Source: Nanobdellota archaeon
GTDB lineage: Archaea > Nanobdellota > Nanobdellia > SCGC-AAA011-G17 > GW2011-AR17
Length of the DNA: 35,905 nt
Assembly: GCA_018830945.1 (NCBI GenBank)
Contig: JAHJRD010000073.1
Span: forward strand, 1 to 35,905
Direction: 5' to 3'
This document shows, piece after piece, positions 78 to 32,413 of this stretch. The first letter of the stretch is position 1. Every line of letters starts with the position of its first letter. The position numbers and the translations under genes were made by a program. The notes under the pieces are model-generated. The model saw only the letters and a program-made list of their open reading frames with translations, was not told where the DNA came from and made no database searches.

Positions 78-635
78 ATGAAACCAATAACAATTGCAGC
101 AGTCGCGGTTGCCGGCTTGGCAGCATTAACTTTAGGGTGCAAGGATACGCCAGAAAAAAATGAAAAGGAATTCAGAGGTATATTGCAGGCAAATGCTCCT
201 GCTTGCGAGAATTCTCCTTATGTCGGGATGAATGAGCAAAATCTTCAGATTCAGTGTGGTGGCTATTCATCAGCATGTTATATGATGCCTGAAGATAAAA
301 AAACTACATGCTATTCATTTTGGATGATTCGGATGCCGGATGGTGCAGGCAATACATTTCTTCAATGTCATTTAGTAGAAGAGGTTGGCGTTTGGCAGGA
401 AACATACGATTCATATCACTTCCAAGATATGCATTGTGACGGCAATCTTGAAGAGTATTTTCATGCAAGACTAAGGAACGTGTCCGGTACCGAAGAGGAG
501 ATTGGCAGTGTGGTCTCGTCCTTTGAGCTGCCGCCAATAGATGCCGCTGTTATTGAAAGATACAATAGGGATTTAGAGGCCATCGGCGAGAATCAAATCA
601 AAGCCATGTGGCAGGAAAGGTTTGGGCAGCAATAA
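78..635 (+). CDS. small secreted lipoprotein, paralogous family
   Basis: The 185-residue product starts with a short basic n-region and a hydrophobic stretch ending in LTLGC, a lipobox with the lipidated Cys at residue 21, so it should be exported and membrane-anchored. The mature part is rich in Cys (CENSPYVGM, IQCGG, CYMM, CYSF, CHL, MHCDGN), suggesting disulfides. The pattern C-x-N/S-x-P-x-V followed by I-x-C-x-G, and the C-terminal YNRDLEAIGENQIKAMWQ, recur in the proteins encoded at 11634-12140 and 12110-12661, so this is a local paralogous family. AGGAGGT at 67-73 supports the start. I do not recognise the family and no function can be given. Confidence 0.85.
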   Translation: MKPITIAAVAVAGLAALTLGCKDTPEKNEKEFRGILQANAPACENSPYVGMNEQNLQIQCGGYSSACYMMPEDKKTTCYSFWMIRMPDGAGNTFLQCHLVEEVGVWQETYDSYHFQDMHCDGNLEEYFHARLRNVSGTEEEIGSVVSSFELPPIDAAVIERYNRDLEAIGENQIKAMWQERFGQQ

Positions 636-3755: not shown

Positions 3756-4139
3756 ATGGCGCGCAAAAAGCCGCTGGAACAGAGGATGCCTGATGCAACT
3801 GACTTATTTTGCGCCTTAGACACAATTGTTAATCCAGATCCGGCATGTTATAATGAGTCTATAATTGCATATCCTGATAATGATCCGCGTGAAGACCACA
3901 GCGAAAGCGAAATATGGATGTATTTTGTGCACCTTACGCCTGATGAGCAAAAAATGGCAAAAAAGGAGATAAGGCGTTTTTCAAGAATAACAGGCAAGGA
4001 ATTCATGATATTAGCCCCAACCTACTGCAGTGAGAAAGGCTGTACAGGGCATTTTAAGGATCCCAAGGCACACATCCATTGCTTTCCAGGTGATCTTAAC
4101 AATTGTTATCTATACATTTCAAAAGCTAGCAGGCATTAA
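3756..4139 (+). CDS. hypothetical protein with possible Cys/His metal site
   Basis: The 127-residue soluble protein has an acidic middle and, near the C terminus, CSEKGCTGHF followed by HIHCF, a cluster of Cys and His that could bind zinc. The start is supported by a TATA box (GGTTTATAAAC, 3724-3734) 22-32 bases upstream, consistent with a leaderless message. Its 3' end overlaps the convergent protease gene by 14 bases. I do not recognise it. Confidence 0.7.
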   Translation: MARKKPLEQRMPDATDLFCALDTIVNPDPACYNESIIAYPDNDPREDHSESEIWMYFVHLTPDEQKMAKKEIRRFSRITGKEFMILAPTYCSEKGCTGHFKDPKAHIHCFPGDLNNCYLYISKASRH

Positions 4140-5331
4140 CGCCTTTTTCTTCAAGAAGCTTGTTGTTTACATATATAGGGCTGTCAAATCTTGCTCCAAT
4201 TGCAACAGCATCGCTTGGCTTTGCATCCACGCTTAGCAGTTTCCCTTCCTTTAATGCAAAAAGCCTGCCTGTAAAGTATCCTGCCTCATAGCCGTCAATT
4301 GCAACGCCAATAATGTCAATCCCAAATGAGTCAAATACTGCCGCTGCTGTGTCATGCGCATTAGGCCTGCCAAGCACTTTCTTGTATATGCCGCCTGCTA
4401 TTGAGTTTGCCTGCTCAAATGTAGTCACAGCAGGTATTGCAGTGCAGTTTACTTTGATGAATATGTTGCTGCCTGAGACAATTACATCAGCTGATGAATA
4501 TTCCTTGAGATTAACACCTAGCTCTGAAAGCAGCGCATGCTGCTTTTTTGTGGCTTCAACAGGGATGAGGGCATTATATTCTTCTTTTATGCTTTCAACG
4601 CTTTCAATGCTTACAGCTTCCAAGGCTTCCTGCAGTGTTGCAACCTCCTTGATAGGCACACCCATTGCACTCCCTTCAAGCAGGGGCATGTATGTTATTT
4701 CGCAGTAATCGCCTGTGCATGACTCTTTTCTTGTCTGCTCAAGAACACCGCCTTGCCCTGCAGGGACAATAAGAACAGATATATTCGCCTGCTTTGCAGC
4801 TTCTGCCTTCTTGTCGACAAGCCCGACAGGCATTATCTTGCCATCATTGTCAACAGCGCCGGTCATTGCAGCTTCTTTGCTTATTTCCTTGTTTTCAAGC
4901 ATTGCCATGACAAGAACAGCCATTGCCGCGCTTGCAGAGCCTCCGTCAATAACTCCTGCGTCTGTCTTCATTGAAAAGCTGACATCATAACCCTGCATTA
5001 CAGTGCCTGTTGCATTGCCTGCAGCATGCACTGCATTCCTTGCAAACACCTGCAGCTCATACCCTGCAATCACATCATTGACATTTACCAAAACCTGGCC
5101 ATTGCCTGGCTTGAGCATTGCTGTGAGCTCTGTCATTACTCCTTCTCCCTGCTGGTTCACGCCGGGGACATTGATGCTTGCTGTTTTTTCTTCACCCCTA
5201 ATATAAACAATCTCTTTTATTTTTTCAGGAAAAGCTTTTGTGCCGATAAGAATGCCCATGCCAAAAATGATTAATATTCCAACAACAAACGCAACATCAG
5301 CAATAATCCTTGCTGTATCCTTCTTTTTCAT
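4126..5331 (-). CDS. membrane-anchored S16 (Lon-type) protease fused to DUF151-like domain
   Basis: I chose the ATG at 5331 (401 residues), which puts a transmembrane segment right at the N terminus (residues about 8-30). Residues about 45-200 are a Lon-type proteolytic domain without an AAA module: catalytic Ser in DGGSASAAMAV (S132) and Lys in PVGLVDKKAEAA (K175). Their 43-residue spacing equals that of E. coli Lon S679/K722. Residues about 285-401 resemble the DUF151/bifunctional nuclease domain: RPNAHDTAAAVFDSFGI, GYFTGRLFAL and VDAKPSDAVAIGARFDSPIYV. Archaeal TM-anchored S16 proteases are known, but I do not know this fusion. It is divergent from the SemiSWEET gene. Confidence 0.88.
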   Translation of the reverse strand: MKKKDTARIIADVAFVVGILIIFGMGILIGTKAFPEKIKEIVYIRGEEKTASINVPGVNQQGEGVMTELTAMLKPGNGQVLVNVNDVIAGYELQVFARNAVHAAGNATGTVMQGYDVSFSMKTDAGVIDGGSASAAMAVLVMAMLENKEISKEAAMTGAVDNDGKIMPVGLVDKKAEAAKQANISVLIVPAGQGGVLEQTRKESCTGDYCEITYMPLLEGSAMGVPIKEVATLQEALEAVSIESVESIKEEYNALIPVEATKKQHALLSELGVNLKEYSSADVIVSGSNIFIKVNCTAIPAVTTFEQANSIAGGIYKKVLGRPNAHDTAAAVFDSFGIDIIGVAIDGYEAGYFTGRLFALKEGKLLSVDAKPSDAVAIGARFDSPIYVNNKLLEEKGVNAC

Positions 5332-5410
5332 AAGGTTAAAAGAGGGCTGATAGGATATAAATGTTTTGGGGATACAAGGATATATAAACACCTTAATTCT
5401 TCTAATCATA

Positions 5411-5665
5411 ATGGAACTAATTAGCTTGGTAGGGCTAATGGCTGCGTTTTGCACAACTGCCTCATTTATTCCGCAGGCAGTAAAAACAATAAGAACAAAG
5501 CAGACAAACGGCCTTTCACTTGGGATGTATTTAATTTTGACAATGGGATTGTCTTTATGGCTGACTTATGGAATTTTTATAAAAGATTTGCCCATCATCC
5601 TTGCAAACAGCATAACCCTTGCTTTTAGCATCATAATCCTTGTCCTGATAATGAAATACAGATAA
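5411..5665 (+). CDS. SemiSWEET sugar transporter
   Basis: The start at 5411 gives 84 residues, the normal size of a three-helix SemiSWEET/MtN3 half-transporter that works as a dimer. Three hydrophobic helices are visible, with the PQ motif SFIPQAVKTIRTKQTNGLS after helix 1. The earlier in-frame ATG at 5366 would add an unusual extension. A TATA-like GATATATAAAC (about 5380-5390) lies 20-30 bases before the chosen start. The substrate is probably a small sugar, by family. Confidence 0.88.
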   Translation: MELISLVGLMAAFCTTASFIPQAVKTIRTKQTNGLSLGMYLILTMGLSLWLTYGIFIKDLPIILANSITLAFSIIILVLIMKYR

Positions 5666-10244: not shown

Positions 10245-11144
10245 ATGGAAACAAATGAAAAGCGCGGGCATCTGCACCTGCACACAGGCGCATCTGACGG
10301 GCTTGTGACAATAGAAGACATAGCAGAATCAGGCATTAGCTTTACTGCAATAACAGACCATGACACAATGGAAGGCATTGGAAAGTTCATGGCTTTGGAA
10401 AAGCACGGCATAGAAGTCATCCCTGGAATAGAATTGTCAGCAAGGCATATGGGAAAGAACATGCATATGCTTGTATATTATCCAAAAGCAAAGCCAGAGC
10501 TCTATGCAATGCTTGAAGAATTCAGGATGAAGAGGGTTAAAAGGGCATTGACAACAGCAGAAAAACTCGCAGAGCATGGCATAATAATGGACAGGGCCGC
10601 GATACTTGCTGAAAAAGGGCTTATTGCAAAAGGAAACATGGCAAGGATGGCTTTAGATTACCCTGCAAACAGGGCTTTGCTTGCAACGCAAGGTATTAAG
10701 GATGCGCAGGAATTCATACAGGCATACTTGAATAAAAACAAGCCAGGGCATGTAAAGCTTGGCGGCATGGAAGTGTCAGAGCTTATAAAGCTTGTTGACG
10801 GCGTGAAGGTTCTTGCCCATCCTGCGCATAACCTTGACATGGGAACACACGATTATATTGTTGAAGACTTAGCTAAAAATTACGGAATTTGGGGCATTGA
10901 GGTGTGGACAAGAAAGCACGACCCTGGCGCGCCTGAATATTATCTTAATCTTGCAAAAAAGCTTGGGCTTTACCCGATTATCTCAAACGACGTGCACGCA
11001 AAAGAGGATTTGAGTGAGAATAGAGCTCCTTATGAGATGGTTGAGGCGATAAAGAAACAAAAAACAGGTTTTAAGGCTCAGCAGGGCGCCTTGCACTGTA
11101 GGCACTCCATAATCTCGCAGCTTTTTCCTTGTCCATATCCATAA
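10245..11144 (+). CDS. PHP-domain metal-dependent phosphoesterase
   Basis: I take the ATG at 10245, five bases after the Shine-Dalgarno GAGGTGG, rather than the in-frame GTG at 10236 that overlaps it. The 299-residue product has all PHP metal-binding segments: HLHLHTGASDG, AITDHDTMEG, IPGIELSA, LAHPAHN and ISNDVHAKED. It resembles COG0613 enzymes that degrade short oligonucleotides or nucleoside bisphosphates. The last 25 residues (CRHSIISQLFPCPYP) are encoded antisense to the neighbouring lipoprotein gene, a 74-base convergent overlap, and may be a recent extension. Confidence 0.9.
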   Translation: METNEKRGHLHLHTGASDGLVTIEDIAESGISFTAITDHDTMEGIGKFMALEKHGIEVIPGIELSARHMGKNMHMLVYYPKAKPELYAMLEEFRMKRVKRALTTAEKLAEHGIIMDRAAILAEKGLIAKGNMARMALDYPANRALLATQGIKDAQEFIQAYLNKNKPGHVKLGGMEVSELIKLVDGVKVLAHPAHNLDMGTHDYIVEDLAKNYGIWGIEVWTRKHDPGAPEYYLNLAKKLGLYPIISNDVHAKEDLSENRAPYEMVEAIKKQKTGFKAQQGALHCRHSIISQLFPCPYP

Positions 11145-11637
11145 GGATTATTGCATATTCATTTGCAGCTTCAAAAAACCTTGCTGCATTTTCAACTATA
11201 TCTCCTTCTACCCTCATCCCCATGCCTTCAATCATCTCCACAGTTGAGAAATCAAGATAGCTCACAGAATTTCCGCTGCTTGGCTGGTACAATTCAATTA
11301 TGCCATTGCAGTCAACATCAGTCCATTTATCTGTAATCTCAGTAAGCAGTATTCTCTTTTCAAGAAATTCGCCAAAACATCCTTCCCTTCTAAGCATTGG
11401 CTTCATAAAAGTATATTCGCCGCACCATATCTGAAAGCCATATTCATCCATCACAACAACTGCTGTTTCCCCGCAAAAGCCAAGCCTTGTTGGAATTTTT
11501 TCAACTTCAACGCCTTCAGGCAATCCATACATTATCCTAAGAGTCTCGTTTTGGCTTACGATTGGCTCATAATCCCTGGAAGCAGTTGTAACAGCGCATG
11601 TTCCTGCAAGCAACGCAATCAAGGCAAGCCTTCTCAT
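11071..11637 (-). CDS. secreted Cys-containing protein, third gene of tandem set
   Basis: The start at 11637 overlaps the upstream stop by ATGA and yields 188 residues beginning MRRLALIALLAGTCAV, a signal peptide with a possible lipobox (LAGTC). LGFCGETAVVVMDEYGFQIWCGEY is the family's C-x6-V ... W-C-x-G/E segment, and DVDCNG matches the third Cys site. The C-terminal KEKAARLWSAY corresponds to the Q/E-V/I-x-A-x-W motif of the neighbours. It is the last and most divergent of three tandem genes. The function is unknown. Confidence 0.78.
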   Translation of the reverse strand: MRRLALIALLAGTCAVTTASRDYEPIVSQNETLRIMYGLPEGVEVEKIPTRLGFCGETAVVVMDEYGFQIWCGEYTFMKPMLRREGCFGEFLEKRILLTEITDKWTDVDCNGIIELYQPSSGNSVSYLDFSTVEMIEGMGMRVEGDIVENAARFFEAANEYAIILMDMDKEKAARLWSAYSARRPAEP

Positions 11638-12140
11638 AATTTGCCTCTTGGAGGAGCATGATACCTGAATCTCCATCTTGCATCAACTTCCCTCTGCCCA
11701 ATGCCCTCAAGCGTTTGATTATACTCATCTGCCTGCTCTTGTGTGGCAGGGCTGCTTTCTTCAACAAGCTGGTAATAGCTGTAATTCGGCCTGTGCCTTA
11801 ACATCCAATGCCAATAAATGTCAATGTTTTCATCACAACCATAATCAACAACTCTCTTTCTTTCATCTTCTGCCTCATACAAAAGCCGCGCTGTGCATCC
11901 TGCATCTGTTTCCATGTATGAAAAGCTGTAACCATCGCAGTCAATTGTGTAGAATCTATCATCCATCCTTACTGTCGGATTATTATTGCACAAAGGCGCA
12001 TTATATTCAGGCGCAGGCTGGCGCCATACAGCCGGCTGATGATTTGGAGCAGGCAATGCAGCAGGCATAGAACATCCTGCAAGAATCGGAGCCAATGCCA
12101 TCAGGTTTCTTAGAATGTTGCGCTTTTCCATTTTTCCCAT
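11634..12140 (-). CDS. lipoprotein, second gene of tandem set
   Basis: From the ATG at 12140 (or 12131) the 168-residue product has a lipobox LAPILAGC. It continues with a Pro-rich linker and the family core: LCNNNPTVRM, YTIDCDGYSF, GCTARLLYEAEDE and DYGCDENI. The C-terminal YNQTLEGIGQREVDARWRF is nearly the same pattern as in the protein encoded at 78-635. The gene start lies inside the end of the upstream gene, with AAAGGAGG about 13 bases before the ATG, so the genes are translationally coupled. The start is uncertain by three codons. Confidence 0.8.
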   Translation of the reverse strand: MGKMEKRNILRNLMALAPILAGCSMPAALPAPNHQPAVWRQPAPEYNAPLCNNNPTVRMDDRFYTIDCDGYSFSYMETDAGCTARLLYEAEDERKRVVDYGCDENIDIYWHWMLRHRPNYSYYQLVEESSPATQEQADEYNQTLEGIGQREVDARWRFRYHAPPRGKL

Positions 12141-12661
12141 GCTATTTCCACTTCCTCCTTTCCAATGCCTCTTCGTAAAAACCAATCATATGTTCCCTGT
12201 TCATTCTCAGACGGGGGAATCCTAGAATCCACTATGCTGACAGGGCTTTCGTTCCAGCTTGCGCCGTCCCAATAAGTCCACATTCGCCATTCATCTGCAA
12301 TCTCGTCTGTGTCTTCATCAATCCATTCCTCTTTTCCAACCAATGTCTGGCCTGAATAAGCATACCATGCCAAATTCTCGCTGCATGCGCTGTTGCATAT
12401 ATGGCGAAATTCCAAATCACCATTGCAGGAAATCACGTACTCGTTTTCCCTGAACACCACATAAGGCTGGTTGTCGCATGCAACAGCATCTTCAGCATAA
12501 ATATTTCCTGAAAATTCATTTGGCAAGACTGAATCGTCTGCTGTTTCTTGGATGTTTTGTATGCCTGTTTCCTGCTCAGGCAGGGGCATAATCACGGGGG
12601 TTTCTCTTGCGCAACTGCTTAAGGCGGCTATAACAATTGCTGTTAGCACTCTTTTCATCAT
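12110..12661 (-). CDS. lipoprotein, first gene of tandem set
   Basis: The 183-residue product starts MMKRVLTAIVIAALSSC, a signal peptide with lipobox ALSSC. The core repeats the family pattern ACDNQPYVVF, YVISCNGDLEF, and ends in GIGKEEVEIAWEKW. A central Trp-rich acidic part (DEIADEWRMWTYWDGASWNE) differs from its paralogues. GAGGATGAT precedes the two adjacent ATGs, and a minus-strand TATA lies at about 12692-12702. The IS element is inserted just upstream of this promoter. It heads a three-gene operon of related secreted proteins. Confidence 0.82.
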   Translation of the reverse strand: MMKRVLTAIVIAALSSCARETPVIMPLPEQETGIQNIQETADDSVLPNEFSGNIYAEDAVACDNQPYVVFRENEYVISCNGDLEFRHICNSACSENLAWYAYSGQTLVGKEEWIDEDTDEIADEWRMWTYWDGASWNESPVSIVDSRIPPSENEQGTYDWFLRRGIGKEEVEIAWEKWKSATF

Positions 12662-12915: not shown

Positions 12916-14330
12916 CTATGTGCCTGCAAAAAGGTAGAATATTTTTGCAAAGAGTTGCAAAAACTCCATAAATGGAAATCTTATATTTCCGATAGTGCCA
13001 TTCCATTTTTCTCTTACTATTTTCAATTTGAGAGACAGGCTTTCATTGCACCTAAACCTTTTCTTCTCTGTCTGTTGTAATGTTGCCGAGTAGTATTGTT
13101 CTATATTGTTATTGGTCGGCGGAACCAAGGAATTATCCTGAAAAACTGTAAGCTTATCGATATTCTCTATAATGCTCTTTATTCGTTTTTGTATTTTTTG
13201 GGGAAAAGTCCGATTTCTTTCTTTAATTTTTCAAGTATTTCCATAGTTTCTGTTTTAACTCGCCTTATTAAATATTTGAGGGGATGCTTCCGCCTATATT
13301 TCTTCAAACCTTTTCTGAATTCGAAGAAATCAAAAATCAACCTCATTTCATAATCCAGGATTATTTTTGAGTCCTCTTCGTAACAACCGCACCCCTTTAG
13401 GATTTCTCTTCTCTCGGTTAGCTTATTCAATTGTTGTTTAAGAAAACTGCATTCAACCGAATGTTCAAAAAAGAGATTTAATATCATGTAAAGATTATAC
13501 ATTTCTTGTAATGGCAAAACCTTTTTGCCATAACGATTTAATTTCTTTTCACTTTCAAAATCTTTGACGACGAGCTTATTCAAATGAAATAGGCACCATT
13601 GAACTTTAACATTGGGAAAAATGTCCTTCAGCATCTGTGGATAACCCATTGCTAAATCAACTATAAATGCCTCTTTTCTATAGGGGAGTAATTTTATTTT
13701 TAGCTTAGCTTTTAATGTCTCAATCCGTTTGTCTTCAACGATTTCATCAAATATTACATTTTTTGTAACAGCATCGATGACTACAACTCTGATACAAGAC
13801 TTGCCATTTACCTTGGGATGTTGTTCGTCATAGTTAAAAATACCTGAGCTGCCAAGAACTTTTGTTTCTTGTATTCTTTCAGCAGAATCAAGGTATATTT
13901 GTCTTACCCATTCATGGCTTATCGTTTTACCAAACATTCTTTCGATATGTGCATTAATATTATCCAATGAAACCTCAAATGTGCAAAGATTGAATATCTC
14001 TGTTCTGACAAGTTCTTTATATTGTTGAACAAAAAGTTCAGCATCTTTGCACCTTGTAGTCCATGTGTGCCCGCATTTTTTGCATATAAATTTACCTCTC
14101 TTGATTACCACACCTAATTCTTTTATGAGCTTATTTTTATACAAATCATTGCCATTGTGGTCGATACGATTACAGCCACATTTTTCACAAACAGGGGAAA
14201 GTTCATGGAACTTTCCGGAAATGTTTATGGAAAATCTCTTTTCCTGCTTGATTGGGGCGGTTATTTGCGTCAATAAAGGCACTACTCTAGCACCGAAAAA
14301 GTTATTTAGTCTGGAATTATATTCTATCAT
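12916..14330 (-). pseudogene. DDE transposase interrupted by a -1 frameshift
   Basis: The first frame (14330-13179, 383 residues) has two zinc-binding pairs at the N terminus (CEKCGC, CKKC) and DDE-type motifs FNYDEQHPKVNG (D168) and FIVDLAMGYPQM (D225), then WCLFHLNK, the C-x2-H motif of MULE-like transposases. It stops after FPKKYKNE. A -1 shift near the A6 run at about 13189-13194 restores a second frame to 12916 with the missing third acidic motif PPTNNNIEQYYS and RFRCNESL. Together they give about 470 residues. It is either decayed, expressed by frameshifting, or a homopolymer error. Confidence 0.78.
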
Positions 14331-31114: not shown

Positions 31115-32413
31115 ATGGCAGGATATGAAGATTTCATTGACTTAAAATACAAGCCTGACTCGCATGATGTGATTGCATCATTCAGGGTAAAGGTACCAAG
31201 GTGGAGCTCTGCAAAAAGAGCATGGGGCGCTGTTGCAGCTGAAAGCTCAGTAGGCACATGGTCTCCGTTAAAAGCAATGAATTACAAAAATGTAAAAGCA
31301 GTTGCCGCAAAGGTGTTTGAGGCAAAAGGCGAATGGATTAAGATTGCATATCCTGAAGAGCATTTTGAAGAAGGCAACATGAGCCAGATTCTTGCTTCTA
31401 TTGCAGGCAATGTGTTTGGGATGAAAGCAGTGGATGCATTAAGATTGGAAGATATTGAATTCACTAAAAAGATTGTAAAGTCATTCCCAGGGCCAAAATT
31501 CGGAAGAAAAGGCATAAGAAAGATATTTGGAATATATGACCGGCCATTAATGTTATCAGTTGCAAAGCCAAAAGTGGGATTGACAACAAAGCAGCATGTG
31601 GAAGTTGGAAGGCAGATATGGGAAGGCGGCTTGGATTTATTGAAAGACGATGAAAACCTTTCAAACCAGTCATTTAATCCGTTTGAAAAAAGAGTCAAGG
31701 AAAGCCTGAAAGTAAGGGATAAGATTGAAAAGAAAACAGGGGAGAAAAAAAGCTATTTAATCAACATAACAGGCCCTACTGTGAAAGAGATGGAAAAAAG
31801 AGCGAAATTCATAAAAGCGCAGGGCGGAGAGTATGCAATGATTGACATTATCACAACAGGATGGGCGTCTGTTGCATCAATAAGAGAAATCTGCGGCGAC
31901 TTGGGATTGGCTCTGCACGCGCACAGGGCTATGCACGGCGCAATGTCAAGAGTGCCAACGCACGGCTTTTCAATGGAATGCATTGCAAGCTGCGCAAGAT
32001 TATTAGGAGTTGACCAGCTGCATATTGGAACTGCAAATATAGGGAAACTTGTAGGCTCTGCAGCTGAAGTCATTGAACTTGAAGATGAGATTACTTCTGA
32101 CTTGAACAAGGAAAACAAGCAATTGCACTGCCTTGAGCAGGATTGGTTTGGAATAAAGCCAGTATTCCCTGTTTCTTCAGGCGGATTGCATCCCCTGCTT
32201 GTTGACAAGGTAATGGACAAATTAGGCACTGACATAATGCTGCAGATTGGCGGCGGAATACATGGGCATCCATCAGGTTCTTATGCAGGAGCAAGAGCAA
32301 TGCGGGAAGCAGTGGAAGCATACATGGCTGGTGTTGATTTGGCTGTTGCTGCTAAGAAGTGCAAGGAATTGAAAGTTGCATTGGACTACTGGGGCAGAAA
32401 AGGAACCAGATAG
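31115..32413 (+). CDS. rbcL: ribulose bisphosphate carboxylase large chain, archaeal form III-like
   Basis: The 432-residue protein has every catalytic element: E43 in AAESSVGTW, K151/K153 in AKPKVGL, carbamylated K177 with D179 and E180 in LLKDDENLSNQ, HAHRAMHG (268-275), loop 6 K311 in IGKLVG, S354/S355 in SSGGLHP and IGGGIHGHPSG. It should be active. In archaea without a Calvin cycle it converts ribulose bisphosphate from AMP breakdown to 3-phosphoglycerate. AMP phosphorylase and ribose-bisphosphate isomerase are not in the window. Its leader can form alternative hairpins over the Shine-Dalgarno. Confidence 0.95.
   Translation: MAGYEDFIDLKYKPDSHDVIASFRVKVPRWSSAKRAWGAVAAESSVGTWSPLKAMNYKNVKAVAAKVFEAKGEWIKIAYPEEHFEEGNMSQILASIAGNVFGMKAVDALRLEDIEFTKKIVKSFPGPKFGRKGIRKIFGIYDRPLMLSVAKPKVGLTTKQHVEVGRQIWEGGLDLLKDDENLSNQSFNPFEKRVKESLKVRDKIEKKTGEKKSYLINITGPTVKEMEKRAKFIKAQGGEYAMIDIITTGWASVASIREICGDLGLALHAHRAMHGAMSRVPTHGFSMECIASCARLLGVDQLHIGTANIGKLVGSAAEVIELEDEITSDLNKENKQLHCLEQDWFGIKPVFPVSSGGLHPLLVDKVMDKLGTDIMLQIGGGIHGHPSGSYAGARAMREAVEAYMAGVDLAVAAKKCKELKVALDYWGRKGTR

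Follow-up and report, generated by a model that had tools for sequence, protein, structure and literature searches.

A predicted membrane-anchored S16 protease joined to a BFN/DUF151 domain, and its counterparts encoded by gene pairs, in Nanobdellota

The window analysed here (the whole stretch of DNA, 35,905 nucleotides) encodes a 401-residue protein in which a transmembrane (TM) anchor, a Lon-type (S16) protease domain and a BFN/DUF151 domain follow one another in a single chain, and the locus raises the question of what a DUF151 domain would do beside a protease at the membrane. An earlier note, drawn from the sequence alone, had proposed this order for positions 4126-5331; these coordinates are right, the strand is minus, and Pfam, AF2, Foldseek and hydropathy fully support the order. 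That note knew of no described protein with this combination, and our searches of the open-access literature likewise turned up neither an S16-BFN protein nor such a gene pair. The domains themselves are known; it is the architecture and the conserved gene pair that we rate as new. The features of the gene are as follows.

4126..5331, minus strand: the fused gene, 401 aa, with its ATG at 5331 and its stop at 4128-4126; four genomes of the genus carry it intact
5233..5316, minus strand: N-terminal transmembrane helix, residues 6-33 (AF2 helix 6-33; hydropathy and positive-inside charge)
4612..5187, minus strand: S16 (Lon-type) protease domain, residues 49-240 (Pfam Lon_C; Foldseek match to the Lon P domain)
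4936..4938, minus strand: codon of the catalytic Ser132, invariant in 27/27
4807..4809, minus strand: codon of the catalytic Lys175, invariant in 27/27
4702..4719, minus strand: Cys205-Cys210, the conserved pair of the S16 part (25/27)
4501..4611, minus strand: fast-evolving linker, residues 241-277, in place of the BFN protein's own TM anchor (30-65% identity versus 59-85% in the flanking domains)
4129..4500, minus strand: BFN/DUF151 domain, residues 278-401 (Pfam PF02577; AF2 pLDDT 94; fold match to TM0160)
4444..4446, minus strand: Cys296, first conserved Cys of the BFN part (21/23)
4354..4356, minus strand: His326, equivalent of TM0160 His58 (conserved 20/23)
4210..4212, minus strand: Asp374, equivalent of TM0160 Asp115 (conserved 23/23)
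4129..4131, minus strand: Cys401, the C-terminal residue and second conserved Cys of the BFN part (21/23)

Domains of the fused protein

By Pfam, catalytic dyad and predicted fold, the part that follows the anchor (residues 9-27 are hydrophobic, mean KD 2.6) is a genuine S16 domain for which proteolysis is predicted. Pfam Lon_C (PF05362) matches residues 112-192 (E=1e-10; 42.0 bits against a gathering cut-off of 21.1), and Foldseek aligns this part with the proteolytic domain of E. coli Lon (1rr9, E=1e-12, TMt 0.75); the AF2 model of the full-length protein has a pLDDT of 75, with the S16 core mostly above 85. The S132/K175 dyad with its Lon-like 43-residue spacing, which the earlier note had picked out, is confirmed and is invariant in all 27 aligned members, therefore proteolysis is the best-conserved activity. 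No AAA+ ATPase domain was matched by Pfam or NCBIfam anywhere in the 401 residues, so that processive unfolding is not expected and the protein, judged by its sequence, is neither LonA nor LonB. The same genome has, as a separate gene, a LonB-like open frame of 629 aa.

Several known systems resemble the S16 part. Archaeal LonB is likewise membrane-bound and has an S16 core with a Ser-Lys dyad, but its chain includes an AAA+ ATPase and its domains lie on the cytoplasmic side; a 2015 review that tabulates archaeal membrane proteases gives LonB as its S16 entry (PMC4343526). The class-wide archaeal S16 proteins of about 600 aa, which we take to be COG1750-like, have a related S16 domain and no other recognised Pfam domain; one of them (L049) ends in a TM helix followed by RKKKR, which suggests an outside S16 domain. 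They differ from the fused protein in their longer C-terminal part, the lack of a BFN domain and the placement of the anchor. A further parallel is the streptococcal SepM family, membrane-anchored S16 proteins without an AAA+ ATPase that act outside the cell. SepM carries a PDZ domain. By score the fused protein is not SepM, as the NCBIfam model NF041438 (340 aa, no BFN domain) matches the S16 part only weakly (E=4e-4; 19.6 bits, far below the cut-off of 200).

The C-terminal part, in which the earlier note had recognised DUF151-like patterns, is a genuine BFN/DUF151 domain by profile and by predicted structure. Pfam BFN_dom (PF02577) matches residues 298-399 well above its gathering score (E=1.1e-17; 64.3 bits, cut-off 27), and the AF2 model of this part (mean pLDDT 94) has the DUF151 fold, its only significant Foldseek matches being to the DUF151 protein TM0160 (1sj5/1vjl, E=8e-11, TM 0.79). 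The outcome that the earlier note had named as refuting its reading, a missing DUF151 match together with an unlike fold, therefore did not arise. It shares the RPxxHD and DxxPSDA motifs with TM0160 and other PF02577 proteins (Rv1829, plant BBD1/2, UVR-DUF151), here as RPNAHD at residues 322-327 and VDAKPSDAV starting at 368. For those proteins, by contrast, the literature compared describes neither a TM anchor nor a protease fusion, and the two conserved cysteines of the BFN part set this archaeal group apart from them. The residues proposed as catalytic in TM0160 are unevenly kept: across the family Asp is conserved in 23/23, His in 20/23 (Tyr in three members) and Thr in 10/23, and the fused protein has Asp374 and His326, with Ala325 at the position of TM0160 Thr57. 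The molecular role of DUF151 has been described as unknown (PMC7249048).

A 127-aa ORF at window positions 3756-4139 (plus strand) converges on the 3' end of the fused gene with a 14-bp overlap; it lies beside the fusion in 4/4 genus genomes and has no Pfam match. A divergent gene at 5366-5665 (plus strand), 34 bp from the start of the fused gene, encodes a 99-aa PQ-loop/SemiSWEET-like transporter. Elsewhere in the window, three paralogues at 78-635 (plus), 11634-12185 (minus) and 12110-12661 (minus) encode small proteins that contain Cys and look secreted or lipoprotein-like; they are related to one another by blastp (E 9e-9 to 9e-4) and have no Pfam match, with a possible fourth paralogue, by eye, at 11071-11676 (minus). 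The window also holds a RuBisCO large-chain homologue at 31115-32413 (plus; PF00016, E=1.5e-86, and PF02788) and a 383-aa ORF at 13179-14330 (minus) that is transposase-like by eye.

The fusion and the separate gene pair in relatives

All four genomes examined from the genus carry the fusion without interruption, at 62-66% protein identity to the window protein. Where dN/dS could be computed it is 0.07-0.24 for the S16 part and 0.08-0.19 for the BFN part, at high to saturated synonymous divergence, which indicates that both domains are under purifying selection; the linker evolves faster than the flanking domains in these four genomes. An assembly artefact is very unlikely, because four genomes carry an intact, selected fusion. 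One of them is a public record, DUKS01000024.1, a Nanoarchaeota archaeon by a name for which the NCBI taxonomy now has Nanobdellota. A scan of genome contigs returned only this genus member and one Flavobacteriales S16 protein, which proved unrelated, and no relative was found on viral contigs. The S16 tree places the four fusions together in a single clade with full support; members of separate pairs, among them one from the same family (G006), group loosely with it, and a single fusion event is the simplest reading of this tree. A candidate second fusion, a 482-aa open frame in G384, was rejected, as it consists of two genes 15 bp apart.

Outside the genus, and within the phylum, the two domains are encoded by separate genes; the domain order that the earlier note proposed to survey among archaeal S16 proteins is found as a fusion in one genus only among the genomes compared. 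We took a census of all 103 genomes available for the order, counting as short membrane S16 (mS16) a short S16 match with E below about 1e-40 and an open frame under 300 aa, plus the four fusions; genomes with mS16 and BFN were counted by eye from the match tables, and gene starts were set at the first start codon of the ORF except where homologues fixed them. In alignments A2-A5, which combined rows for the fusion with rows for S16 or BFN alone, MAFFT placed the rows wrongly, and none of these was used for modelling. mS16 occurs in 28 of the 103 genomes and BFN in 21, and the dependence is one-way: every one of the 21 BFN genomes also carries mS16, BFN occurs in 0/75 genomes without it, and seven genomes have mS16 without BFN (Fisher p=2.9e-16, in a test that ignores shared ancestry).

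The association extends to gene order. Among the 21 BFN genomes of the order, 4 have the fusion, 14 have the S16 gene directly ahead of the BFN gene on one strand, and 3 (family f11) have the two on different contigs. A phylum-wide draw of 371 genomes gave BFN in only 19, fused or adjacent in 14 of these, and with G384 and G373 the adjacency reaches other families of the class. Thirteen of the 16 separate adjacent pairs examined overlap by exactly 4 bp (an ATGA stop/start at the junctions where the letters were read), one overlaps by 1 bp, and two are separated by gaps of 15 and 73 bp. Adjacency is kept in families f1, f8, f10, f12, f20, f60 and f104 while the flanking genes change, and no operon shared beyond the S16-BFN pair was found. 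The flanks differ between families, therefore the pair itself is the conserved unit. It appears, from its distribution and gene order, to be a real working unit, which lends support to the functional link between S16 and DUF151 that the earlier note had suspected.

Family f12 has the pair near a large class I-like synthetase gene. Where members of one mS16 clade have no BFN beside them (L043, L046, L042, L045, L117), a methionyl-tRNA synthetase-like gene lies within a few kb. Elsewhere in the class, BFN occurs without a short S16 in G072, G177, G319 and G338, which counts against reading it as a dedicated partner. The BFN protein of G072 (L102 6064-6615), in whose genome no short S16 was found, is TM-anchored and has both cysteines; its gene sits among glycolytic-looking genes and overlaps the next gene by 4 bp.

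Membrane topology and the role of the BFN domain

Where the two domains are separate proteins, mS16 and BFN alike have a TM helix of their own at the N-terminus, in every case in which the contig includes it. Positive charge strongly precedes this helix in both families: K+R/D+E is 93/14 in the 15 residues before the TM versus 44/47 after it in mS16, and 69/8 versus 37/50 in the BFN proteins. By the positive-inside rule both domains therefore probably face outside the cytoplasm. The conservation of C205/C210 and C296/C401, with C401 ending the chain both here and in the majority of relatives, suggests that disulfides are plausible. Disulfide machinery, taken as a check on this argument, gave a mixed picture. 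DsbA-like thioredoxins are present in the window's genome, and Thioredoxin_4 occurs in 11/18 genomes; VKOR has no match in the window's genome and is found in 5/18 genomes overall, which weakens the disulfide argument.

We tentatively favour, at close to an even chance of being right, a model in which the fused protein is an ATP-independent, outward-facing, membrane-tethered S16 Ser-Lys protease and the BFN domain is its dedicated accessory module rather than an independent cytosolic nuclease. The S16 catalytic domain would be tethered by the TM helix outside the cytoplasm and would work without ATP. The BFN domain would most likely recognise particular envelope or secreted proteins and present them to the protease, or regulate it; exposed segments or peptides would be cleaved, rather than substrates being processively unfolded, by analogy with SepM, which cuts a signal peptide outside the cell (PMC8545107). 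Sister lineages encode the two domains as separate TM-anchored proteins, from overlapping genes; this genus has them fused, with the second anchor gone. The accessory role is favoured, on the strength of the association with mS16, because of the one-way dependence and the incompletely conserved TM0160 site; with the putative DUF151 catalytic residues not strictly conserved and the charge bias pointing outside, an accessory or adaptor role would be at least as likely as a nuclease. Against this reading, His and Asp are largely kept in the BFN family, and nuclease activity may be present. An independent hint of BFN as a protease partner comes, by analogy, from plants, in which UVR-DUF151 proteins show strong enrichment among the interactors of ClpC1 (PMC8889267).

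An unlikely alternative is that both domains are degradative, a surface protease and nuclease scavenging external protein and nucleic acid for an auxotrophic archaeon with a small genome. The BFN fold, the conserved H326 and D374 and the predicted outward topology are in keeping with this, as is the non-specific DNase and RNase activity of plant DUF151 proteins in vitro (PMC7249048). However, the TM0160 Thr is Ala here and variable in the family, the His is Tyr in three members, and no transporter or salvage gene recurs beside the pair across families; moreover, a scavenging nuclease need not depend on S16, yet in the order BFN never occurs without it.

It is less probable still that the BFN domain is a nucleotide or nucleic-acid sensor gating the protease, with a logic as in CARF-Lon and SAVED-Lon (CalpL). 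These type III CRISPR proteins likewise join a Lon-like protease, some with TM helices, to a nucleotide-handling domain, and the SAVED domain of CalpL is itself a ring nuclease (PMC11417357). PADLOC gives weak matches to CRISPR-Lon, SAVED-Lon and CARF-Lon (E 1e-5 to 7e-3), confined to the S16 region, and the physical linkage of the two domains is conserved. In CalpL and CARF-Lon, by contrast, the sensor is SAVED or CARF rather than BFN and the signalling is cytoplasmic and CRISPR-linked; PADLOC found neither sensor domain in the fused protein, which by sequence is not a CARF- or SAVED-Lon, and gave no match at all for the separate BFN protein. A predicted outside location would be unfit for a cytosolic messenger, and no gene family besides the pair recurs nearby across families.

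The earlier note had itself proposed that the protein could tie proteolysis at the membrane to nucleic-acid binding or signalling. The first half of this proposal is likely; the second is made less likely by the outside charge bias and the variable DUF151 site residues. A cytoplasmic placement of both domains, linking membrane proteolysis to DNA or RNA metabolism, has precedent in LonB, whose domains lie in the cytoplasm (PMC4343526), and in the DUF151 proteins studied so far, which act inside cells or organelles; we nevertheless consider it improbable, given the conserved cysteine pairs and, in both families, the strongly positive residues ahead of the TM. Genes in small genomes often lie close together, but co-transcription and fusion without functional coupling, through gene packing or an assembly artefact, is very improbable and already largely refuted by the fusion kept intact under purifying selection in four genomes and by adjacency that outlasts changes of flanking genes.

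Returning to the favoured accessory role, the fused protein and the gene pair may represent an undescribed two-component surface system of DPANN archaea (Nanobdellota/Nanoarchaeota), in which a BFN domain, stabilised by disulfides and lying outside the cytoplasm, would control or guide an outward-facing S16 protease that needs no ATP; we regard this as possible, if somewhat short of an even chance. DUF151 is old and widespread, and strict co-occurrence in one order, overlapping genes and a natural fusion with S16 give it a concrete partner. If the proposal is true, DUF151 would gain a general role as a protease partner, as the plant UVR-DUF151/ClpC link also hints, and the pairing suggests that DUF151 can work outside the cytoplasm. 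Envelope proteolysis in DPANN archaea, of which little is known, would also gain a surface S16 protease that works without ATP.
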